Source: Sneathiella aquimaris
Lineage (GTDB): Bacteria > Pseudomonadota > Alphaproteobacteria > Sneathiellales > Sneathiellaceae
Reading direction: 5' to 3'
DNA length: 64,000 nucleotides
Assembly: GCF_026409565.1 (NCBI RefSeq)
Contig: NZ_CP112881.1
Span: forward strand, 2,403,501-2,467,500
In this document: one piece after another, positions 46,794 to 58,919 of the stretch
How positions within the stretch are numbered: position 1 is the stretch's first letter
Layout of the letters: every line of letters starts with the position of its first letter
Position numbers and translations under genes: made by a program
Notes under the pieces: model-generated
The model's input: only the letters and a program-made list of their open reading frames with translations
Database searches by the model: none
What the model was told of the DNA's origin: nothing

Positions 46794-47012
46794 CGGCCGA
46801 AGCAACCAAATCAATCGCTCTCCTATACGGATTTCGACTTGCAACCCGATAATATCAAGAACCGTCCTCGCAGTTTTTCCGGAGTTTTTCTGCGGGTTTA
46901 AATTTCCATGTGTTTCATTTGCGTCAGACGGTCCGCGTATGGTGCAGGAAAGCAAAAATCACGAGAGTCGAAATATTGCATTGCACAAATTATTGTGCGT
47001 GTGCACAATATC
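46794..47012. other. Upstream region of nasT
   Basis: 219 bp between the hybrid kinase stop and nasT. A frame in phase with nasT runs back to 46908, but the extra 35 residues are cysteine- and basic-rich and unlike any REC N-terminus. The last 30 bp contain the GCACAA/TTGTGC element listed separately. Confidence 0.5.
46983..47010. promoter_or_regulatory. Triple GCACAA/TTGTGC element overlapping the nasT start region
   Basis: GCACAA at 46983, TTGTGC at 46993 and GCACAA at 47003 alternate in orientation at exactly ten-base steps, ending two or five bases before the possible nasT start codons. The right pair extends to a perfect TATTGTGC-GTGT-GCACAATA hairpin. It could be a protein-binding site on DNA (three half-sites on one face of the helix) or an RNA stem that hides the start codon; no Shine-Dalgarno is seen. 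A related element lies upstream of nrtA. Confidence 0.55.
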
Positions 47013-47606
47013 ATGATGGCTATCCAGGATTTTAGAATTTTAGTAATTGATGAGAACCGCATACGGGCGTCCATTATCAAGGATGGCCTGGAAGATGCGG
47101 GACATTCTCATGTCACTGTTCTAAACGAGATCAGGGGGGTCGCCGGGCAGATCGAACATCTGGATCCAGATGTCATCATTATTGATCTGGAAAACCCCAA
47201 TCGGGACATGCTGGAATCCATGTTTGCCCTGTCCAAAAGTGTCAAACGCCCCATTGCAATGTTTGTTGACAATTCTGATCAGCAATCCATTGAAGCTGCT
47301 GTAGAGGCTGGCGTCTCTTCCTATATCGTAGACGGCTTTCGACAGGACCGGGTGAAACCGATCATGGATATGGCCATAACACGCTACCGGGCTTTCTCGA
47401 AAATGGAGAGAGAGCTGGAGACAGCCAGAAATGAACTGGCGGAACGAAAAACCATCGACCGCGCCAAAAACATCCTGATGCGAACAAAGAATATTGATGA
47501 AGAACAGGCTTATAACCTGATGCGCCGAACCGCGATGAACCGTAATCAGAAAATCTTCGAAATTGCCGATAGTATTATCATGGCAGCATCCTTGATGGAC
47601 GAATAG
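47013..47606 (+). CDS. nasT: Nitrate-responsive ANTAR antiterminator NasT
   Basis: 197 residues (ATG 47013 or the adjacent ATG 47016). Residues 1-125 form a receiver-like domain (FRILVIDENRIRAS, IIIDLENPNRD). A coiled coil follows, then an ANTAR RNA-binding domain: ERKTIDRAKNILMRTKNIDE, AYNLMRRTAMNRNQKIFEIA. NasT proteins bind paired hairpins with AxxGxx loops in nitrate-assimilation leaders and prevent termination; without nitrate they are held by NasS. Both a nasS gene (12 bp downstream) and a matching leader (before nrtA) are present, which makes the assignment firm. Confidence 0.93.
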   Translation: MMAIQDFRILVIDENRIRASIIKDGLEDAGHSHVTVLNEIRGVAGQIEHLDPDVIIIDLENPNRDMLESMFALSKSVKRPIAMFVDNSDQQSIEAAVEAGVSSYIVDGFRQDRVKPIMDMAITRYRAFSKMERELETARNELAERKTIDRAKNILMRTKNIDEEQAYNLMRRTAMNRNQKIFEIADSIIMAASLMDE

Positions 47607-47618
47607 AAGGGTAACGCG

Positions 47619-48857
47619 ATGAATAATAATAAACAGCAAAATACAATCTGTGCAGGTTTCCTCCCTCTAATGGATGCGGCAATTTTAATTGCGACAAAAG
47701 AAAAAGGATTTGGTAGCGCGGAAGGTATTGACCTTGTTCTGGTAAAGGAGAGTTCCTGGGCAAATATTCGCGATCGCATGGCCATCGGACATTTTGATGT
47801 CGCCCACATGCTGGCTCCTATGCCCATCGCTTCAGCATTAGGCTTGATGCCTTTGCCCCTTAAGATTATCGCACCAATGGCCATGGGTCTCGGCGGCAAT
47901 GCGATTACGATATCCCTTACAATCGCCAACGAGATGGCCAGTGATCAGACTTTAGCCGACCTGTCCGCCCGGGACGCAGGCAAACGGTTATCAGATCTTA
48001 TTGTTGCCCGGCAGAAAACGAAAAAAGAGCGGTTGGTTTTTGGGGTCGTTCACCCCTATTCAGGGCACAATTATGAATTGAGATACTGGTTGGCAGCCTG
48101 CGGAATTCATCCTGATAAAGACGTCGACATTGTCGTTATTCCACCCGCCCTGATGCCCGATGCCCTCTCTTGCGGGATGCTGGATGGGTTTTGTGTCGGT
48201 GAACCCTGGAACAGCATTGCCATTGAGCAAGGAGTCGGGACGCTTCTGACAACCAAATCCAAGATCTGGCGAAATAGCCCCGAGAAGGTTCTCGGCGCCA
48301 GCGAAAGCTTTGCCACCCAACACCCTGAAAAGCTCGCAGCGTTAATCCGGGCCCTGTACCGGGCTGCCAAATGGTGCTCTGATCCTGCAAACATTCCAGA
48401 ATTATCAGCGATCCTGTCTACGAACCAATATATTGGTGTGCCGCCGCATATTCTTGAAAAGGCCCTTCTTGGTAAATTCAAAACCGAAACCGGTCAATTC
48501 GGGGATATTCAGGATTTCTTTATTCCCTATGAAAGAGCCGCGACCTTCCCTTGGCTGAGCCACGCTTTATGGTTCTATAGTCAGATGGTCCGTTGGGGCC
48601 ATGCGGATTGGTCACCAGAGTTTGTCGAACAACTGAAAAACTGTTACCGACCCGATTTGTATCGATCAGCCCTTTCAAAAATGAACGTTCCCATCCCTTC
48701 AGCGAATGCAAAGGTTGAAGGTGCGTTGGAACAAACTCAATATGTCGGGACCATGCAAGGACAACTTTCTCTTGGCCCCGATGGCTTCTTCGATGGCAGA
48801 GTTTTTGATCCAGATGATTTGGCGGCCTATATCGAACAACAACGCACCGATCAATAA
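47619..48857 (+). CDS. nasS: Nitrate/nitrite sensor NasS
   Basis: 412 residues. The fold is that of the nitrate-binding protein NrtA/NasF ([72 protein letters not shown]), but there is no signal peptide, so it is cytoplasmic. NasS sequesters NasT and releases it when nitrate or nitrite binds. The gene is directly behind nasT (12 bp, AAGGG binding site), the usual order. Sequence identity with the nrtA product at 49157 is obvious by eye across the binding motifs (for example [19 protein letters not shown]-like ends), consistent with descent from a transporter component. Confidence 0.93.
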   Translation: MNNNKQQNTICAGFLPLMDAAILIATKEKGFGSAEGIDLVLVKESSWANIRDRMAIGHFDVAHMLAPMPIASALGLMPLPLKIIAPMAMGLGGNAITISLTIANEMASDQTLADLSARDAGKRLSDLIVARQKTKKERLVFGVVHPYSGHNYELRYWLAACGIHPDKDVDIVVIPPALMPDALSCGMLDGFCVGEPWNSIAIEQGVGTLLTTKSKIWRNSPEKVLGASESFATQHPEKLAALIRALYRAAKWCSDPANIPELSAILSTNQYIGVPPHILEKALLGKFKTETGQFGDIQDFFIPYERAATFPWLSHALWFYSQMVRWGHADWSPEFVEQLKNCYRPDLYRSALSKMNVPIPSANAKVEGALEQTQYVGTMQGQLSLGPDGFFDGRVFDPDDLAAYIEQQRTDQ

Positions 48858-48878: not shown

Positions 48879-48905
48879 CGCACAAAAATTATGCACGCCG
48901 CACAA
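48879..48905. promoter_or_regulatory. Upstream activator-like element of the nrtA operon
   Basis: GCACAA at 48880 and again at 48900 bracket TTATGC (48889-48894, one mismatch to TTGTGC). The total length and end hexamers equal those of the nasT element. Read on the other strand, 48879-48895 matches 13 of 17 positions of the NtrC-site consensus TGCACC-A-WWWT-GGTGCA. It lies 110-140 bp before the predicted transcript start, the usual place for an NtrC site of a sigma-54 promoter. Binding protein is inferred. Confidence 0.5.
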
Positions 48906-48989
48906 CAATTAATCTGACCTACATATGGGCGATTAACGCGCAAAAAGACAACCCATTGAAATAAAACAATCTTTTTTCACCAACCAAAC

Positions 48990-49005
48990 TGGCACACTGT
49001 TTGCT
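48990..49005 (+). promoter_or_regulatory. Sigma-54 promoter of the nitrate operon
   Basis: TGGCAC (48990-48995), five bases, TTGCT (49001-49005): the GG at -25/-24 and GC at -13/-12 have the invariant ten-base separation. This matches the sigma-54 consensus TGGCAC-N5-TTGCW closely. The transcript would begin near 49016, 13 bases before the first ANTAR hairpin, which fits a leader RNA. Confidence 0.85.
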
Positions 49006-49028
49006 TTGTTAGGAACATAGACATTACC

Positions 49029-49062
49029 GTGCCCAACGACGGGCACACTGGCAAAGCTGCCA
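49029..49062 (+). ncRNA. ANTAR (NasT) target: two hairpins with AxxGxx hexaloops
   Basis: First hairpin: GTGCCC-AACGAC-GGGCAC (49029-49046), six-base stem. Second hairpin: TGGC-AAAGCT-GCCA (49049-49062), four-base stem. Both loops have six bases with A at position 1 and G at position 4, and they are two bases apart, which is exactly the ANTAR-binding pattern known from nas, eut and ami leaders. The lost distance to the terminator and the nearby nasT gene make the assignment strong. Confidence 0.88.
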
Positions 49063-49066
49063 TGCT

Positions 49067-49098
49067 GTTTCGATGGTCATTCATGACTGTATCGAAGC
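49067..49098 (+). promoter_or_regulatory. Candidate antiterminator hairpin of the nrtA leader
   Basis: TTCGAT (49069-49074) pairs with ATCGAA (49091-49096), with an inner GTCA-TTCA-TGAC stem and an outer G-C pair. The 3' arm uses bases 49095-49098, which are also part of the terminator stem, so the two cannot form together. The switch is inferred from the overlap. Confidence 0.6.
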
Positions 49099-49117
49099 TG
49101 CATTGCAGCTTTTTTTT
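49095..49117 (+). terminator. Attenuator terminator in the nrtA leader
   Basis: AAGCTG-CATTG-CAGCTT followed by eight T (49110-49117), 40 bases before the nrtA start. An intrinsic terminator upstream of the first gene has to be overcome for expression. Also, GCAGCTT of its 3' arm is complementary to AAGCTGC inside the second ANTAR hairpin (49054-49060), giving another possible exclusive pairing. Confidence 0.85.
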
Positions 49118-49156
49118 ATGAAAATTTTTGAACCAAGTAACGACAGGAGGCTAAAA

Positions 49157-50557
49157 ATGGGTGCTTTAAAATATGCAAGACGTACCTTTCTAGCGATGAG
49201 TACGGCCCTTCTAGCCACAGCGGCCACGGTTTCAGTTTCTCACGCTGAAATGCTGGATGTGGAGAAGGATGAGTTAAAATTCGGGTTTATCAAACTAACC
49301 GATATGGCCCCACTCGCCATTGCTTATGAAAAAGGCTATTTCGAAGAAGAAGGCCTTTACGTCACTCTTGAACCTCAAGCCAACTGGAAAGTCCTGCTCG
49401 ACCGGGTGATCACCGGTGAACTGGATGGTGCGCATATGCTGGCTGGACAGCCGCTGGCCGCGACAATTGGTTTTGGTACCAAAGCCCATATCGTTACGCC
49501 CTTTTCCATGGATCTGAACGGGAACGGAATTACCGTTTCGAACGAAATCTGGGAAATGATGAGAAAACATATTCCGTCTGGTCCTGATGGTAAACCTGTC
49601 CATCCCATCAAGGCCGATGCTCTGAAGCCAGTCGTTGATCAGTTCAAAGCGGAAGGCAAGCCTTTCAAAATGGGTATGGTTTTTCCTGTCTCCACCCATA
49701 ATTATGAACTTCGTTACTGGCTGGCTTCAGGCGGTATTCACCCCGGATTTTACAGCGCGGATGATGTCTCTGGTCAAATCCAGGCGGACGCCCTGTTGTC
49801 AGTAACACCACCGCCGCAGATGCCTGCAACACTCGAAGCCCAGACCATTCACGGTTACTGTGTGGGGGAGCCGTGGAACCAGCAAGCCGTATTTAAAGGG
49901 ATCGGCGTTCCTGTAATTACAGATTTCGAAATATGGAAGAACAATCCTGAAAAAGTCTTTGGCTTAACCAAAGAGTTCACAGAAGCCAATCCGCAAACAA
50001 CTCTGGCCCTGACAAAAGCCTTGATCCGGGCAGCCAAATGGCTTGATGAAAACAACAATGCAAATCGAATGGAAGCCGTCGAAATCCTGTCGCGATCTGA
50101 ATATGTAGGGGCCGACAAAGAAGTGATTGCCAATTCCATGACCGGCACCTTCGAATATGAAAAAGGGGATAAACGTGACGTTCCTGATTTCAACGTTTTC
50201 TATCGGTATTATGCAACCTACCCCTACTATTCCGATGCTGTGTGGTATCTCACTCAAATGCGCCGTTGGGGCCAGATCAACGAGCATAAAAATGACGCTT
50301 GGTATGACGAGGTGGCCAAATCTGTCTACCTGCCAAACGTCTATCTTCAAGCTGCCAGGCTGTTGGTTGAAGAAGGCCACGCCGATAAAGCCGATTTTCC
50401 ATGGGACTCTGATGGTTATCGCGCGCCTACCCCGGCGGCCGATATCATCGATGGCATCCCCTATGACGGTAAAAAGCCCAACGCTTACATCAACTCTCAA
50501 AAAATTGGCTTGAAATCCAAACAGATGGTCAAGGGCGACTCTCTGGTTGAAGGGTAA
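49157..50557 (+). CDS. nrtA: Nitrate ABC transporter, substrate-binding protein
   Basis: 466 residues from the ATG with AGGAGG six bases upstream. The frame extends back to 49073, but that part is the attenuator leader and not coding. The N-terminus [24 protein letters not shown] is a Tat-like signal (RR) with AxA-like cleavage. The mature protein is NrtA/CmpA-type: [57 protein letters not shown]. It binds nitrate or nitrite in the periplasm and delivers it to NrtB. First gene of the operon nrtA-nrtB-nrtCD-nirB-nirD-nasA. Confidence 0.93.
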
Positions 50558-50565
50558 CCCGACAC

Positions 50566-50589
50566 AAGTGGCCGCAACGGCGGCCACTT
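50566..50589 (+). promoter_or_regulatory. Intercistronic hairpin between nrtA and nrtB
   Basis: Perfect ten-base stem AAGTGGCCGC / GCGGCCACTT with loop AACG, 9 bases after the nrtA stop, without a T run. Such hairpins protect the upstream message from 3' exonucleases, giving more binding protein than permease. The structure is certain; the role is inferred. Confidence 0.7.
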
Positions 50590-50618
50590 CCCCGACGATG
50601 AATTAAGGACCCCCAAAG

Positions 50619-51698
50619 ATGACAAATACTTCTGAAGTGATGACAACCGGTGACGCCGGAAAGAAAAGGGAAAAGGTTTTTTCCATAATCAACCGTGCGT
50701 CAGGCTGGTTGAACGCACTCGGGTTTTCCTGGCTGGTTCCCATCCTGAAGATGCTGGCAGGCGATAACTTTCAGGAACAGCTGACTGAGCTGAGAAAAGT
50801 TCTTCTATATCCGATGCTGGGTATCATTGTCTTTCTGGTGGCCTGGACCGCGCTTGCCCCGCGCGTTCAAACGTCTCTTGGGGCAATTCCGGGCCCCACC
50901 CACGTTTGGGAACAGACCGGCAATCTTTGGGCGGACCATATCCGGGAAAGAGAAAAAGCTGATGCGTTTTATGACCGTCAGGACAAACGGAACGAAAAAC
51001 TGATTGCCGCCGGCAAGGCAGACAAAGTCAAACACCGCACCTACACAGGTAAACCGACCTATTTTGACCAGATCGTCACCTCCTTGGCGACTGTGGGGCT
51101 AGGCTTTCTGATTGCTACAATTGTGGCGGTACCATTGGGCATTGCATCGGGACTGTCAAAGGCAGTCAATGGCGCGGTGAACCCGCTTATCCAGATTTTC
51201 AAGCCCGTCTCTCCTCTTGCCTGGTTGCCTATCGTCACCATGGTTGTATCCGCCCTGTATGTTGAACCTTGGGGATGGATGCCAAAATCCATGATGATTT
51301 CGGCGGTCACTGTCACGCTTTGCTCCTTATGGCCAACCCTTATCAATACAGCACTGGGCGTTGCCTCTATCGACAAAGATCTGATGAATGTGAGCCGAGT
51401 CCTGCAATTACCAACGGCCAAAACAATCACAAAACTTGTTCTCCCCTCTTCACTGCCGCTTATTTTTACCGGCTTGCGCCTGTCGCTTGGGGTCGGATGG
51501 ATGGTGTTGATTGCTGCCGAAATGCTGGCTCAAAATCCTGGCCTTGGAAAATTTGTCTGGGATGAATTCCAGAACGGCTCTTCACAATCTCTGGCCAAGA
51601 TAATCGTTGCAGTCCTGACCATTGGTATCATTGGCTTTGTATTGGATCGCATCATGTATGCGTTGCAAACAGCCTTCACTTTTTCTGCAAATCGATAG
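50619..51698 (+). CDS. nrtB: Nitrate ABC transporter, permease
   Basis: 359 residues. The N-terminal 130 residues include one membrane helix and a long hydrophilic stretch rich in K, D and E; the rest is the ABC permease fold with five helices, with the EAA-type loop LPTAKTITKLVLPSSLPLIFTGLRLS that contacts the ATPase. NrtB/NasE-type permeases take nitrate from NrtA. AAGGA precedes the ATG. It ends nine bases before the nrtCD start. Confidence 0.92.
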   Translation: MTNTSEVMTTGDAGKKREKVFSIINRASGWLNALGFSWLVPILKMLAGDNFQEQLTELRKVLLYPMLGIIVFLVAWTALAPRVQTSLGAIPGPTHVWEQTGNLWADHIREREKADAFYDRQDKRNEKLIAAGKADKVKHRTYTGKPTYFDQIVTSLATVGLGFLIATIVAVPLGIASGLSKAVNGAVNPLIQIFKPVSPLAWLPIVTMVVSALYVEPWGWMPKSMMISAVTVTLCSLWPTLINTALGVASIDKDLMNVSRVLQLPTAKTITKLVLPSSLPLIFTGLRLSLGVGWMVLIAAEMLAQNPGLGKFVWDEFQNGSSQSLAKIIVAVLTIGIIGFVLDRIMYALQTAFTFSANR

Positions 51699-51707
51699 GT
51701 GGAGCGC

Positions 51708-53471
51708 ATGTCATTTTTAGAAATCACAGGATTGTCAAAGCATTATGGAGACGGTGCAAACCGAACCAACGTGCTGAAAGACATCAATCTAAAAGTCGAG
51801 GACGGCGAGTTTATTGCGATCCTCGGCTTCTCAGGCTCTGGCAAAACAACGTTGATTTCGGCCTTAGCAGGCTTGATCGAACCAGACACAGGCGGCGTGA
51901 TCTTTCGCGGGAAACAAATCACAGGCCCCGGCCCGGAGAGAGGATTGGTCTTTCAATCATATTCCCTGATGCCGTGGCTATCAGTGCGTGGAAACATAAC
52001 GCTTGCGGTTGATGCGGTTCACACAACCAAATCCCGCAAAGAAAAGACAGAAATAACACAACATTATATCGACATGGTGGGTCTCTCCCATGCGGCCGAC
52101 AGACGACCAGCAGAGCTTTCTGGTGGCATGCGTCAACGGGTTGCTGTTGCCCGGGCACTTGCCATGCAGCCCGAAGTCCTTCTTATGGATGAGCCACTAT
52201 CCGCACTGGATGCGCTGACCCGCGCCAAGCTACAGGACGAGTTCGCAGATATTTCTCAAAAAGAAAAGAAAACCATCATCCTCATTACAAATGACGTGGA
52301 TGAAGCGATCCTTCTCGCCGATCGGGTGATCGCGCTAACCCCTGCACCAAATGCCACTTTAGGGCGGGAGTTTCGCATTGATCTGCCACGACCAAGGAAC
52401 CGTGCTGAAATCAATAGCGACGCAGAGTTTATCCGCCTGAGAGGTGAGATTACACAGTATCTGATGGATATAGGTGCAGAACGGGGGGTTGAGGCAGAAC
52501 GCTGTATCGCGCTTCCGGAAATCGTTCCGATCACGCAGCGGGACAAAATTCCCCCAGCCTACCAAAAAGCTGCTGAGTCAGTGCGCAACAAACGGTATCT
52601 GGACTTGAGTCAGATTAAAAAGATTTACCCCACCCCACAGGGGCCGCTAACGGTAGTCGACGGGTTCGACTTGAAAATGAACAAGGGCGAATTTGTTACG
52701 CTGATTGGTCATTCAGGATGCGGAAAATCAACGGTCCTGTCGATGATTTCTGGTCTCAATAGCATCTCTGAAGGCGGGATTATTCTGGACGGTACCCATA
52801 TTGAAGGGGCTGGTCCAGACAGAGCCGTTGTTTTTCAAGCCCCATCCCTGCTGCCGTGGCTCACGGCACACGAGAATGTCTGCCTCGGTGTGGATAAAGT
52901 ATATCCGGACGCTGACAGGTCTGAACGCAAGGATGTGGTTGAATATTACCTTTCAAAAGTCGGCCTTGCCGATTCCATGCATAAATTGGCAGGCGATTTA
53001 TCCAACGGAATGAAACAACGGGTGGGCATCGCCCGGGCATTTGCCCTGTCTCCCAAGCTTCTTCTATTGGATGAACCTTTTGGCATGTTGGACAGCCTAA
53101 CCCGTTGGGAATTGCAGGATGTTCTGATGGATGTCTGGAAACGGACGCAGGTGACGGCTGTTTGCGTCACCCATGATGTGGATGAAGCCATTCTGCTGGC
53201 CGACCGGGTTGTGATGATGTCAAACGGGCCCCATGCGAAAATCGGCAATGTGATGGATGTAGATCTTCCCCGGCCAAGATCTCGCAAAGCCCTGCTGGAA
53301 CACCCGGACTACTACGCCTATCGCGAGGAGCTTCTGGAATTCCTGGATGCCTATGAAGGCGGTGCAAATCCAAGTACCGAGCAACTGTCCAGAATTACCG
53401 CAAAACGCAAAGAAAGAATTGCCCGGCAGGCAGGGCAAGAAAAACCGAAAGCAGTGTTATCAGCGGGGTGA
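51708..53471 (+). CDS. nrtCD: Nitrate ABC transporter, two ATPase domains fused in one chain
   Basis: 587 residues; ATG 51708 with GGTGGAG upstream. First ABC domain (residues 1-250): Walker A GFSGSGKTT, signature LSGGMRQR, Walker B LLMDEPLSALD. Second ABC domain (about 300-540): Walker A GHSGCGKST, a modified signature LSNGMKQR, Walker B LLLDEPFGMLD. Each is followed by a TxDVDEA H-loop region; the first has TNDVDEA in place of THDVDEA, so its switch histidine is replaced by N and that site may hydrolyse ATP poorly. Cyanobacteria encode NrtC and NrtD separately, with NrtC carrying an NrtA-like tail; here no such tail exists. Single-chain double ATPases occur in some proteobacterial nitrate systems. 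Confidence 0.88.
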   Translation: MSFLEITGLSKHYGDGANRTNVLKDINLKVEDGEFIAILGFSGSGKTTLISALAGLIEPDTGGVIFRGKQITGPGPERGLVFQSYSLMPWLSVRGNITLAVDAVHTTKSRKEKTEITQHYIDMVGLSHAADRRPAELSGGMRQRVAVARALAMQPEVLLMDEPLSALDALTRAKLQDEFADISQKEKKTIILITNDVDEAILLADRVIALTPAPNATLGREFRIDLPRPRNRAEINSDAEFIRLRGEITQYLMDIGAERGVEAERCIALPEIVPITQRDKIPPAYQKAAESVRNKRYLDLSQIKKIYPTPQGPLTVVDGFDLKMNKGEFVTLIGHSGCGKSTVLSMISGLNSISEGGIILDGTHIEGAGPDRAVVFQAPSLLPWLTAHENVCLGVDKVYPDADRSERKDVVEYYLSKVGLADSMHKLAGDLSNGMKQRVGIARAFALSPKLLLLDEPFGMLDSLTRWELQDVLMDVWKRTQVTAVCVTHDVDEAILLADRVVMMSNGPHAKIGNVMDVDLPRPRSRKALLEHPDYYAYREELLEFLDAYEGGANPSTEQLSRITAKRKERIARQAGQEKPKAVLSAG

Positions 53472-53476
53472 GTAAA

Positions 53477-55924
53477 ATGAGAAAAAAACTAGTAATTATT
53501 GGAAACGGAATGGCCCCTGGCAGAATGCTGGAGCATCTGTTTGAGGCAGATATAGAAGCATATGGCGTCACAATTTTCAACGCTGAGCCCCGAGTAAACT
53601 ACAACCGGCTAATGCTGTCACCTGTTCTGTCCGGCGAAAAAACCTATACCGATATTATCACGCATGATGATGACTGGTACGCCGAACATGGCGTGACCCT
53701 GCATAAAGGTGCGCGCATTTCTAAAATCGACCGGACTAAAAAAACGGTGACATCAGAAAACGGTATCATCGCTGAATATGATAAACTGGTAATCGCCACC
53801 GGCTCCAACCCCTTTGTCATTCCCGTTCCGGGTCACGATCTTGACGGCGTCATGGTTTATCGGGATCTGGATGATGTTGAAAAGATGCTGGAAGTCTCCA
53901 GAACAGGAGGACGTGCGGTCGTCATCGGCGGTGGTCTGCTGGGTCTGGAAGCGGCTGCAGGGTTGAAAGAACAAGGGATGGAGGTCACCGTTCTGCATCT
54001 GATGCCAACCTTGATGGAACGACAACTGGATATTGCCGCGGGCGCCTTACTGGAAAAATCTATTCTGGCCCGTGGGATCGATGTTATCACAGGCGCTAAT
54101 ACCAAAGAAATTATCGGTAAAGATCAAAAAGTAGCAGCGGTAAGCCTTGACGACGGCACCCTGATCGATGCAAAAATTGTTGTAATGGCGGTTGGAATTC
54201 GCCCCTCTATCGATCTTGCAATCCAGTCAGACCTTGCATGCCAGCGGGGCATTCTGGTGAACGACAATATGCTTACATCAGATCCCGATATTTACGCGTT
54301 GGGGGAATGCGTTGAACATCGGGGACAATGTTATGGTCTGGTCGCGCCCCTTTATGAGATGGCAAAAACGTTGGCCGCAGACTTGCTCGACACCTCTCTG
54401 CCCTATAGCGGCTCGCAAACAGCAACAAAACTGAAAGTCAGTGGTATTGACCTGTATTCCGCTGGAGATTTTGAGGATGCCCCGGACCGTGAGGAAATTG
54501 TCCTTCGGGATGGAATTGCAGGCCTCTATAAACGTCTCGTAATCAAGGACAATAAAATTCTGGGCGCCGTTCTTTACGGGGACACGACAGAGGGGCCATG
54601 GTTCTTTGATTTACTGAAAAAAGGAACCGATATTTCGGACATGCGCGACACCCTGATTTTCGGACAGGCCTATCAGGGAGGCGCCCCTCTGGACCCCATT
54701 GAAGCCGTTGCAGCCCTGCCAGATGATGCAGAAATCTGCGGTTGCAACGGCATTTGCAAATCCACAATCGTTACAACCATCAACGACAAGGGTCTAACCT
54801 CCCTCGATGACGTCAGATCCCACACAAAAGCATCAGCCTCCTGTGGAACCTGCACATCGCTTGTCGAAAATCTACTACAGTTGACCGCGGGAGATGCCTA
54901 CAACCCGTCCGCCGTTACACCGGTTTGCACCTGTACAGATCTTGGTCATAGCGATGTGAGAAATGCAATTCGAGCCCAGTCGCTAAAATCAATTCCTGAC
55001 ATCATGCAACGACTGGAATGGAGAACATCCAGTGGATGTGCCAAATGTCGCCCAGCGCTGAATTATTATCTGATTGCCGAATGGCCCGGAGAATATGAAG
55101 ATGATAACCAGTCCCGGTTTATTAACGAACGGGTTCACGCCAACATTCAGAAAAATGGAACCTATTCTGTTGTACCGCGGATGTGGGGCGGCTTGACAAC
55201 AGCCGATGAACTTCGCGCCATTGCGGACGCGGCAGATAAATACAACATCCCGACGATCAAGGTGACCGGAGGACAACGGATTGACCTTCTGGGTGTTGAA
55301 AAAGAAGATTTACCCAGTGTGTGGGCGGACCTTGGCAAGGCTGGCTTTATATCGGGCCATGCCTATGCCAAGGGGTTGCGCACGGTGAAAACCTGTGTCG
55401 GGTCGGACTGGTGCCGATTTGGAACACAAGACTCGACCGGATTGGGCGTAAGGCTGGAAAAATTCCTGTGGGGCTCCTGGGCGCCGGCAAAGGTAAAGCT
55501 GGCCGTTTCAGGGTGCCCAAGAAACTGCGCTGAGGCAACCTGTAAGGATGTGGGCGTGATTTGCGTGGACTCTGGTTTTGAAATCCATTTCGCAGGGGCC
55601 GCCGGGCTTGACATATTGGGGACAGAAGTTCTCGGTCTGGTGAAAACCGAAGATGACGCCCTTGAGTATATAGCGGCCCTTATCCAGATGTACCGGGAGC
55701 AAGGGCATTATCTTGAGCGTATCTATAAATGGGCGCGCCGGGTCGGACATGACGTCATTCGAGACAGTATTATGGACGACACCGAAAGGCGCAAAGCCCT
55801 GTACGACCGTTTTGTCATCTCCCAAAAATACTGCCAATCGGACCCATGGTCTGAACGTGTTTCCGGAAAAGACAAGCATGAATTCAACCCCCTAAAAACC
55901 ATTGAACTGGAGGCCGCAGAATGA
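53477..55924 (+). CDS. nirB: Assimilatory nitrite reductase, large subunit
   Basis: 815 residues. Order: FAD domain (IIGNGMAPGRMLEHL), NAD(P)H domain (VVIGGGLLGLEAAAGL), a BFD-like [2Fe-2S] domain (C-G-C-N-G-I-C-K, then CGTC), a second BFD-like module (CAKCRPAL), and the siroheme/[4Fe-4S] ferredoxin-nitrite reductase halves with the cysteine pairs TCVGSDWCRFG and SGCPRNCAEA. It reduces nitrite to ammonium with NAD(P)H. ATG 53477 is chosen; a GTG nine bases earlier overlaps the upstream stop codon and is an alternative. nirD overlaps the end by ATGA. Confidence 0.95.
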   Translation: MRKKLVIIGNGMAPGRMLEHLFEADIEAYGVTIFNAEPRVNYNRLMLSPVLSGEKTYTDIITHDDDWYAEHGVTLHKGARISKIDRTKKTVTSENGIIAEYDKLVIATGSNPFVIPVPGHDLDGVMVYRDLDDVEKMLEVSRTGGRAVVIGGGLLGLEAAAGLKEQGMEVTVLHLMPTLMERQLDIAAGALLEKSILARGIDVITGANTKEIIGKDQKVAAVSLDDGTLIDAKIVVMAVGIRPSIDLAIQSDLACQRGILVNDNMLTSDPDIYALGECVEHRGQCYGLVAPLYEMAKTLAADLLDTSLPYSGSQTATKLKVSGIDLYSAGDFEDAPDREEIVLRDGIAGLYKRLVIKDNKILGAVLYGDTTEGPWFFDLLKKGTDISDMRDTLIFGQAYQGGAPLDPIEAVAALPDDAEICGCNGICKSTIVTTINDKGLTSLDDVRSHTKASASCGTCTSLVENLLQLTAGDAYNPSAVTPVCTCTDLGHSDVRNAIRAQSLKSIPDIMQRLEWRTSSGCAKCRPALNYYLIAEWPGEYEDDNQSRFINERVHANIQKNGTYSVVPRMWGGLTTADELRAIADAADKYNIPTIKVTGGQRIDLLGVEKEDLPSVWADLGKAGFISGHAYAKGLRTVKTCVGSDWCRFGTQDSTGLGVRLEKFLWGSWAPAKVKLAVSGCPRNCAEATCKDVGVICVDSGFEIHFAGAAGLDILGTEVLGLVKTEDDALEYIAALIQMYREQGHYLERIYKWARRVGHDVIRDSIMDDTERRKALYDRFVISQKYCQSDPWSERVSGKDKHEFNPLKTIELEAAE

Positions 55925-56265
55925 CGTCAGAAACCATGAATTGGACAGAGGTCGGTCAACTTTCGGAAATACCGGTTCAGGGGGCCCGTTGCATAAAATT
56001 GGGAGAGACGACGATTGCCCTTTTTCGGACAATTACAAATGACGTCTTTGCCATCGAAGACAAGTGCCCCCACAAAAAAGGGCCCCTCAGTCAGGGGATT
56101 GTGCACGACAATTGCGTCACATGCCCGTTGCATAATTGGGTAATTTCCCTGGAAACCGGTACCGCGCAAGGGGCCGATGAAGGCTCAACATTAACTTTCT
56201 CAACACGTATTGAGAACGGGATCGTTTCAATTGCCCTTAGTGCCCCTAAAGAGGTCGCCGCGTGA
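55921..56265 (+). CDS. nirD: Nitrite reductase, small subunit with complete Rieske ligands
   Basis: 114 residues of the NirD/Rieske fold. The ligand motifs C-P-H (EDKCPHKKGPL) and C-P-L-H (VTCPLHNW) are both present, so it can hold a [2Fe-2S] cluster; several well-studied NirD proteins lack these residues. It is expected to pair with NirB. The start overlaps nirB and the stop overlaps nasA (GTGA), giving strict coupling. Confidence 0.93.
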   Translation: MTSETMNWTEVGQLSEIPVQGARCIKLGETTIALFRTITNDVFAIEDKCPHKKGPLSQGIVHDNCVTCPLHNWVISLETGTAQGADEGSTLTFSTRIENGIVSIALSAPKEVAA

Positions 56266-58919
56266 GTCGTTTAAAAGAATGCAAAACCACCTGTCCTTAT
56301 TGCGGGGTAGGATGCGGCATAGTCGCCAAATTCAACGAACAGGGTCTGGTCTCTGTTGAAGGAGATCCGGACCATCCCGCAAACGGGGGGCGCCTCTGCT
56401 CCAAAGGATCCGCATTGGCGGAAACCATGTCTGACACCCCCCGTTTGCACGATCCAATCGTTGACGGCAAAGTTTCAGACTGGAATGAAGCACTTGACCT
56501 CATTGCTTCGAAATTCAGCGATACCATTTCCAACTTTGGGCCGGACTCCGTTGCTTTCTATGTCTCTGGCCAGCTGCTGACAGAAGATTATTATGTGGCC
56601 AACAAACTGATGAAAGGTTTCATTGGCTCGGCAAATATCGATACCAATTCGCGTCTCTGCATGGCGTCAAGTGTCGCAGGCTACAAGCGCGCCTTTGGTA
56701 GCGATACTGTCCCCGTCTCCTATGCCGATCTTGAATGCTCGGACCTTGTTGTTCTGGTCGGAAGCAATCTCGCATGGTGTCATCCCGTTTTATATCAACG
56801 CCTGGCAGCTGAAAAAAAACAACGGCCAAATCTGAAGATCGTGGTAATTGATCCAAGAAAAACCATGACAACTGATATTGCTGATTTGCATCTGGCGATT
56901 AATCCCGATGGCGATGCTGCTTTATTCATGGGTCTTTTCGCACATCTGCAAAAAACAGGGGCCTGTGATGATGGTTTTATTGCTCGCCATACCAACGGGT
57001 TTGACGAAACACTGAAACAATGCGCCCCCTTAACGATTGATGAAATCGCTAAAAAAAGCGGTCTGGAACCCGCTGAAATCATTAGTTTCTATGAGCTATA
57101 CCGGACCACCCAAAAAACCGTTACAGTTTACAGTCAGGGCGTCAATCAGTCCCGTGTGGGCACCGATAAAGTCAACGCTATTCTAAACTGCCATCTGATA
57201 ACCGGCCGGATTGGCAAACCGGGTACAGGTCCGTTTTCGATCACCGGTCAGCCCAACGCCATGGGTGGCCGGGAAGTAGGCGGTCTCTCCAATATGTTGG
57301 CCGCCCATATGGAACTTGATAACCCAGCCCATCGCAACTCTGTTCAATCCTTCTGGAAGGCGCCTCACCTTCCTGAAAAACCGGGGCTTAAAGCCGTCGA
57401 TCTGTTCAAAGCGGTGGACAAAGGGGACATCAAGGTTCTGTGGATTATGGCGACCAATCCCGTTGATAGTTTACCGGATTCTGACTTTATCAAAGAGGCC
57501 TTGAAAAAATGTCCCTTTGTCATTGTTTCTGATATCTATCAAAACACCGACACAAACGCCTTTGCCCATGTTCTTCTTCCCTCCTCTGGTTGGGGGGAGA
57601 AAAATGGGACTGTCACAAATTCCGAGAGACGAATTTCGCGCCAACGTGGCTTTCTACGCGCCCCCGGAAATGCAAAACCAGACTGGTGGCAAATGGCTGC
57701 TATTGGCAAGCGGCTGGGGCATCACGGCGCTTTCGACTACTTGAACGAAGCAGACATTTACCGAGAACATGCGGCGCTATCTGCGCTTGATAATAACGGC
57801 TCACGGGATTTCGACATTGGAGAACATTCCAGACTATCGAACGACGGCTATGATAATCTGGCACCGGTTCGATGGCCGGTTCCGATTAAAAAGAACCCAT
57901 CAGAACGCCCTTTCTTTTCAGATGGACACTTCTTCACAGCCAACAACAAGGCAAACATTATCCCCGTCGCGATGCCCACAAAAGATCCCGAAACCGGACC
58001 GTATCAATTAAATACCGGTCGGATCAGAGACCAATGGCACACGATGACCCGAACCGGCAGGTCCCCCCGGTTATCTGCGCATTTGTCTGAACCATTTGCA
58101 GAAATCCATCCCGTTGATGCCCAGAAACTTGGCATTGAATTAGGTGATATTGTTGAACTGACAAATAAACATGGTCGCCTTCTAGCCAAAGCCACGATCA
58201 CGTTCAGGCAAAAAAAAGGTCAGGTTTTTGTACCGATGCACTGGACGGATCAATATGCATCAAATGGCCGCGTCAATAGCCTTATTCCATCGATCACAGA
58301 TCCTGTATCCGGGCAACCGGCATCAAAAAACACAGGCGTTTCCATTCAAAAATATGAAGCCAGGACCTTTCTGTTTCTGCTTACCCGGAAAAAGCCCGTG
58401 TTACCCGCTCGCGGATATTGGGCGACCTTCGAAACCGAAGGAGGATGGGCAACGGAATTTGCAGGAAAAGAGGATCTATTCGAGAAATTGGACGTTATCA
58501 AAAAAATGCTGAACGTCGATCTAAAAACCGCGCCCCTTGCCTACGAAGACAAGAAACGTGGGGAATATAGGCTTGCTTTGTTTCATGGCCAAAGGCTTGA
58601 AGGAATATTGTATGCTTCAGGATCCCCCCTTTCGGTTTCAAGAAGCTGGCTCTGTTCCAAATTTGAAGGCGACTTCAATGATCCGAAGGCACGGTATTCT
58701 GTGGTTGCCGGTAAAGCCCCCGTCAATGAAATAGACAAAGGCGCCATTATCTGTTCCTGTTTCGGCGTCGGAATCAACGAAATCGCAGACGCTGTTCGAT
58801 CTGGCTGCTGTAGTGTCGAAGCCGTTGGAGATGCGACGCAGGGCGGCAGCAATTGCGGATCTTGTCGCTCTGAAATCGCTGAGATCATCAACAAAAATGC
58901 TCTTGTCGCGGCCCAGTAG
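56262..58919 (+). CDS. nasA: Assimilatory nitrate reductase, molybdenum catalytic subunit
   Basis: 885 residues. GTG start overlapping the nirD stop. An N-terminal [4Fe-4S] site is seen (C11-P-Y-C14-G-V-G-C18 and C46 in LCSKGSA), followed by the molybdopterin guanine dinucleotide oxidoreductase body (SVAGYKRAFG, NLAWCHPVLYQR, TNPVDSLPD, TGRIRDQWHTMTRTG). The last 60 residues are a BFD-like [2Fe-2S] domain (ICSCFGVG, then NCGSCRSE), as in Klebsiella-type NasA, which would take electrons from a partner flavoprotein. No separate nasC/nasB electron donor gene is in the window, so the donor is encoded elsewhere or is a ferredoxin. Last gene of the nitrate operon. Confidence 0.95.
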   Translation: MSRLKECKTTCPYCGVGCGIVAKFNEQGLVSVEGDPDHPANGGRLCSKGSALAETMSDTPRLHDPIVDGKVSDWNEALDLIASKFSDTISNFGPDSVAFYVSGQLLTEDYYVANKLMKGFIGSANIDTNSRLCMASSVAGYKRAFGSDTVPVSYADLECSDLVVLVGSNLAWCHPVLYQRLAAEKKQRPNLKIVVIDPRKTMTTDIADLHLAINPDGDAALFMGLFAHLQKTGACDDGFIARHTNGFDETLKQCAPLTIDEIAKKSGLEPAEIISFYELYRTTQKTVTVYSQGVNQSRVGTDKVNAILNCHLITGRIGKPGTGPFSITGQPNAMGGREVGGLSNMLAAHMELDNPAHRNSVQSFWKAPHLPEKPGLKAVDLFKAVDKGDIKVLWIMATNPVDSLPDSDFIKEALKKCPFVIVSDIYQNTDTNAFAHVLLPSSGWGEKNGTVTNSERRISRQRGFLRAPGNAKPDWWQMAAIGKRLGHHGAFDYLNEADIYREHAALSALDNNGSRDFDIGEHSRLSNDGYDNLAPVRWPVPIKKNPSERPFFSDGHFFTANNKANIIPVAMPTKDPETGPYQLNTGRIRDQWHTMTRTGRSPRLSAHLSEPFAEIHPVDAQKLGIELGDIVELTNKHGRLLAKATITFRQKKGQVFVPMHWTDQYASNGRVNSLIPSITDPVSGQPASKNTGVSIQKYEARTFLFLLTRKKPVLPARGYWATFETEGGWATEFAGKEDLFEKLDVIKKMLNVDLKTAPLAYEDKKRGEYRLALFHGQRLEGILYASGSPLSVSRSWLCSKFEGDFNDPKARYSVVAGKAPVNEIDKGAIICSCFGVGINEIADAVRSGCCSVEAVGDATQGGSNCGSCRSEIAEIINKNALVAAQ

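Follow-up and report, generated by a model that had tools for sequence, protein, structure and literature searches.

Our results favor the interpretation that the DNA between nasS and nrtA encodes a NasT-responsive antitermination leader, in which the second of two ANTAR hairpins overlaps a long intrinsic terminator, and that this leader lies under a sigma-54/NtrC promoter, so that transcription would answer to two inputs. Judged from the sequence and from folding models, we put the probability of this reading at about 0.9. The sequence comparison gives strong support to the broader assignment, namely a sigma-54 promoter with a NasT/ANTAR antitermination leader behind it; the original prediction had already named the leader class, and both the covariation of the two hairpins and the comparison of leaders bear it out.

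All features described here lie on the forward (+) strand of the window, i.e. the whole 64-kb stretch of DNA that was analysed. Gene calls and Pfam agree with the gene names first proposed on either side of the leader. Upstream, nasT (47013-47606) encodes an antiterminator with a receiver-like domain and an ANTAR domain (Pfam Response_reg, 3.5e-10; ANTAR, 4.7e-19) and is the sole full-length match in the genome, and nasS (47619-48857) encodes the nitrate/nitrite-binding partner, of the NMT1_2 family (Pfam, 1.2e-70), in whose sequence an export signal was not apparent. Relatives of nasS adjoin nasT across proteobacteria. Downstream, nrtA (49157-50557), its ATG preceded by AGGAGG, is the first gene of nrtABC-nirBD-nasA (49157-58919), which comprises nrtA, nrtB, nrtC, nirB, nirD and a nitrate reductase gene of the nasA type; the product of nrtC has two ATP-binding halves. 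A cognate ANTAR protein is encoded at the locus itself, since nasT adjoins, and NasT and the leader co-occur in the genus.

Two further observations concern nasT. The usual lysine near the end of the receiver domain of NasT is apparently replaced (SYIVDGF), which would fit control through NasS binding and not through phosphorylation. Immediately 5' of the nasT start codon, at 46983-47009 of the window, stand three GCACAA/TTGTGC half-sites (GCACAAATTATTGTGCGTGTGCACAAT), which recall the NtrC site that has been reported upstream of nasT in Paracoccus.

Two ANTAR hairpins and a long terminator

The two hairpins with loops AACGAC and AAAGCT, each with A at position 1 and G at position 4, and the eight T that follow them, are present in the sequence as originally described. 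The first, P1 (49029-49046; GUGCCC-AACGAC-GGGCAC), has six pairs, and the second, P2 (49049-49062; UGGC-AAAGCU-GCCA), has four and is the predicted antiterminator; both exceed the three pairs asked of an ANTAR hairpin, and both covary in the 32 leaders compared, although A1/G4 loops formed part of the search for most of these. The linker between P1 and P2 is short, at two bases here and 1-8 bases in 31 of the 32 leaders. The RNA between the predicted start and the T run folds at -43.7 kcal/mol, compared with -24.4 kcal/mol for shuffled sequences (z -6.2; 0 of 200). In Rfam searches of the window, at the gathering cut-off and with E up to 10, no family passed, and the narK RNA (RF03032), at 17.8 bits against a gathering cut-off of 43.2, does not claim the leader as a member.

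The minimum free energy structure contains a long intrinsic terminator (49053-49117), which is conserved with compensatory changes. Its foot is formed by AAAGCUGC (49053-49060) pairing with GCAGCUUU (49105-49112), followed by a second stem between 49062-49065 and 49100-49103 (AUGC/GCAU) and then by an upper stem, and it leads into a U tract of eight T (49110-49117). AAAGCUGC consists of the loop of P2 and the first bases of its 3' arm. P2 and the terminator are consequently mutually exclusive, and folding and covariation agree that P2 overlaps the 5' side of the terminator. The original prediction had noticed that AAGCUGC could pair with GCAGCUU; that pairing exists, but its role as the foot of the main terminator had been missed.

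Folding with and without P1 and P2 held, as had been proposed, gave the long terminator in the free RNA and an opened foot when the hairpins were held. In the free RNA the pairs of the long foot have probabilities of 0.75-1.00, with P2 and the short hairpin discussed below near 0. With P1 and P2 held, mean pairing over the eight bases of the foot fell from 0.96 to 0.30 in this leader, and the median over the 32 leaders fell from 0.97 to 0.21; in two leaders (L019 and L026) much of the foot stays paired. When the RNA was lengthened step by step in the folding, transcripts ending at 49106 or earlier showed P1 and P2, whereas those reaching 49110 showed the long terminator. P2 thus precedes the terminator and, unless held, gives way to it only between 49106 and 49110, which matches what a co-transcriptional switch needs.

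The comparison rests on nasT-nasS-nrtA loci collected by a NasS scan of genome contigs and a search of 25 genomes of the family, from which 32 proteobacterial leaders were aligned by their P1, P2 and foot; the genus contributes nine of these. Over P1 and the long foot 93.8% of cells are paired, a percentage biased upward because the 3' foot was located by its pairing near the U run, and eight pairs are changed on both sides. The covariation measures, which are less subject to this bias, reach 0.400 for P1 and foot against 0.220 in shuffled alignments (0 of 500) and fall to 0.10 or less when the arms are slid; alignment columns 28 and 37, for example, form C-G in 19 leaders and U-A in 10. Leaders of Rhizobiaceae, whose long P1-P2 linker kept them out of the strict motif scan, came to light in a looser one, which recovered P1, P2 and a similar foot in 30 of 40 further leaders, mostly from Rhizobiaceae (GACGTCGC/GCGGCGTT).

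In these leaders before nrtA (L029-L068, Rhizobiaceae and relatives), P1 and P2 mostly stand about 21-39 bases apart, as opposed to 1-8, and several folds place an extra hairpin between them. In EutV leaders, by contrast, extending the linker to 14 costs activity. The extra hairpin may serve to bring the two ANTAR hairpins close to each other.

The short hairpin and the upper stem

A different wiring had originally been proposed, in which a third hairpin acts as the antiterminator by overlapping a terminator hairpin. The overlap exists, although the shared bases are 49094-49097 and not 49095-49098, but the analysis does not support the wiring itself, as the conserved terminator starts in P2. 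The third hairpin (49068-49097, or 49069-49096 without the outer U-G pair) corresponds to the long terminator's upper stem, and most of its pairs are kept in the two closest relatives (L085 and L086). It forms both in the free ensemble and with P2 held, where its pairs range from 0.37 to 0.96, and being present in both states it cannot be the switch.

The terminator belonging to that wiring would be a short hairpin (49094-49112), with the third hairpin favoured indirectly by NasT through P1 and P2. Two things speak for the arrangement: in this species the short hairpin has no mismatch and ends next to the U tract, and it competes with the third hairpin at near equal energy once P2 is held (-34.1 kcal/mol for the third hairpin, -32.1 kcal/mol for the short one). 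However, the pairing probability of the short hairpin in the free RNA is 0.000, and it is perfect only in this species: L085 has one mismatch in it and L086 has two, although both keep an intact long foot (with one G-U in L086). Base 49099 is paired in the short hairpin alone and stays unpaired in the long terminator. Nor is such a hairpin general: among the other 31 leaders a strong local hairpin precedes the U run only in L019, where its sequence is unrelated, and four (L018, L081, L086 and L092) have weaker local hairpins of six or seven pairs with several G-U; no comparable GC-rich hairpin is found in the set beyond the different one in L019. We accordingly rejected the short hairpin as the main terminator, and consider its combination with a third-hairpin antiterminator very improbable.

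A mixed arrangement is also conceivable, in which NasT controls the long terminator and the short hairpin is a second terminator kept in check by the third hairpin, giving leaky or tighter induction. The inner pairs of the short hairpin do reach about 0.6 with P2 held, in the same ensemble in which the third hairpin forms, and L019 has its own, stronger local hairpin before the U tract; yet its outer pairs, those next to the U tract, stay at 0.06-0.49, and the hairpin is not conserved in the genus, so we regard this arrangement as unlikely. A related idea, that a species-specific short terminator arose inside a standard leader and is guarded by the upper stem when NasT holds P2, making a three-state switch in which this stem has a new role, seems to us unlikely as well. 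Our reading remains that the long terminator is the regulated one. The short hairpin is a minor, species-level alternative to it, and the third hairpin as antiterminator is not a conserved design.

Leader L019 deserves separate mention. Its ten-pair local hairpin (AGCTGCCGAATAGTTCGGCAGCT) before the U tract could terminate transcription even with P2 held; its control may be leaky or follow another scheme.

The promoter layer and the distribution of the leader

A sigma-54 promoter, TGGCACACTGTTTGCT (TGGCAC-N5-TTGCT; 48990-49005), had been predicted upstream of the hairpins and holds up: it is an exact element with -24 GG and -12 GC at the correct spacing, and it recurs at the corresponding position in nine of nine genus leaders and in most of the others. 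It is the single exact match in the window, in which about 2.8 matches would be expected with one mismatch or fewer. A start 12 bases beyond the -12 C (49004) would fall at about 49016, and we infer from the sequence that this promoter is used and that the transcript would begin near that position.

The candidate NtrC site is less distinct. The NtrC-like element CGCACAAAAATTATGCA (GCAC-N7-ATGC; 48879-48895) has one mismatch to GCAC-N7-GTGC, lies 111 bases upstream of the -24 element, and is degenerate and, taken alone, not beyond chance in the window. When the window was scanned with the published alphaproteobacterial NtrC consensus, matches were no more frequent than chance and none fell on this site. 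A GCAC-N7-xxGC element nevertheless stands about 100-125 bases 5' of the -24 element in most genus-mates and in several other leaders; Mesorhizobium relatives have a perfect GCAC-N7-GTGC at the corresponding place, and good sites are found in L007, L010 and L011. The genome encodes both NtrC (688.5 bits, cut-off 558.6) and RpoN (429.9 bits, cut-off 277.35).

Within the genus, a strong leader match (E of 8e-10 or better) was obtained in nine genomes, precisely those that carry NasT, and since the leader model was built from these sequences the informative half of this result is that genomes without NasT have no strong match. Three genomes (G009, 99% complete, and G016 and G023, both incomplete assemblies) have nrtA without adjacent nasT-nasS; there the -24/-12 element is kept upstream of nrtA, and no P2-like hairpin with a terminator was found between promoter and nrtA. 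The hairpin and U run might alternatively be taken as a mere, unregulated end-of-transcript terminator of nasT-nasS, given that they lie downstream of nasS on the same strand. We consider this extremely improbable, because a conserved sigma-54 promoter stands between nasS and the terminator, P1 and P2, which bear A1/G4 loops, covary, and the leader is absent where nrtA occurs without nasT-nasS. A leader search of the genome for further NasT targets returned only the nrtA leader convincingly, the next best match having an E of 0.36.

In one genus-mate (G004:C12:232667-233868; L086 and L111) nasS falls into two parts that are read in different frames, one match containing TGA, while nasT and the leader look intact. 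If the split is real, NasT in that genome may be unchecked.

Proposed mechanism and relation to known leaders

The two inputs named in the original prediction, nitrogen limitation and nitrate, are supported as an interpretation by the promoter and by the leader class. Under nitrogen limitation, NtrC-phosphate and sigma-54 RNA polymerase would start the transcript near 49016. By default the RNA would fold into P1 and the long terminator, as folding and covariation suggest, and transcription would stop at 49110-49117. Nitrate or nitrite would cause NasS to release NasT, which would hold the hexaloops of P1 and P2 as they emerge and so prevent the invasion of P2; the eight-pair foot beside the U tract would be lost and RNA polymerase would enter nrtABC-nirBD-nasA. 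The third hairpin, as the upper stem of the terminator, would be present in either state. Since the short hairpin partly forms with P2 held, some termination may persist with NasT. We infer NtrC binding, NasT binding and read-through at this locus from sequence, folding and covariation.

In Paracoccus, NasS is known to release NasT on nitrate or nitrite. Nitrate sensing by NasS-NasT has been shown there together with leader binding, NasT binding the nasA leader RNA with nitrate (PMC3795266). In P. denitrificans, NtrBC and NasT exert combined control, and a hairpin is needed for nasA and essential for growth on nitrate (PMC5424462). The arrangement resembles ours, in that nasT-nasS lie upstream, a hairpin leader of about 200 bases precedes the structural genes (PMC5424462, PMC3795266), and general nitrogen control by NtrBC is combined with NasT antitermination (PMC5424462). 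It differs in that the first gene here is nrtA, of an ABC nitrate transporter, and in that the -24/-12 element and NtrC-like site lie here in the nasS-nrtA gap, whereas the Paracoccus NtrC site is placed before nasT and the site for nasA was left unidentified.

A P2 that overlaps the terminator is the published model of ANTAR leaders (PMC3369931, PMC3369936, PMC8934654). The nasF leader of Klebsiella oxytoca shares with ours the two A1/G4 hexaloop hairpins and a distal P2 stem that overlaps the proximal stem of the terminator (PMC3369936, PMC3369931), but it is served by the one-component NIT-ANTAR sensor NasR in place of NasS-NasT. EutV leaders of Enterococcus faecalis likewise have A1/G4 hexaloops in P1 and P2, with P2 embedded in the terminator (PMC3369931, PMC8934654), although EutV is switched by phosphorylation and both ligand and genes are others. 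The 5' leader of nosR in Bradyrhizobium diazoefficiens is bound by NasT, which interferes with a terminator there (PMC6759348), as proposed here for nrtA; nosR is a denitrification target, whereas here only nrtA has a credible leader.

In conclusion, the sequence data indicate that the region is a nitrate attenuator leader of the ordinary NasT type, with the customary wiring in which P2 overlaps the terminator. The NasT leaders thereby gain a clear example from the alphaproteobacteria, and the comparison shows that the published overlap rule holds across them. That within one genus the NasT-leader layer comes and goes with nasT-nasS while the sigma-54 layer stays suggests that the two are separable modules.
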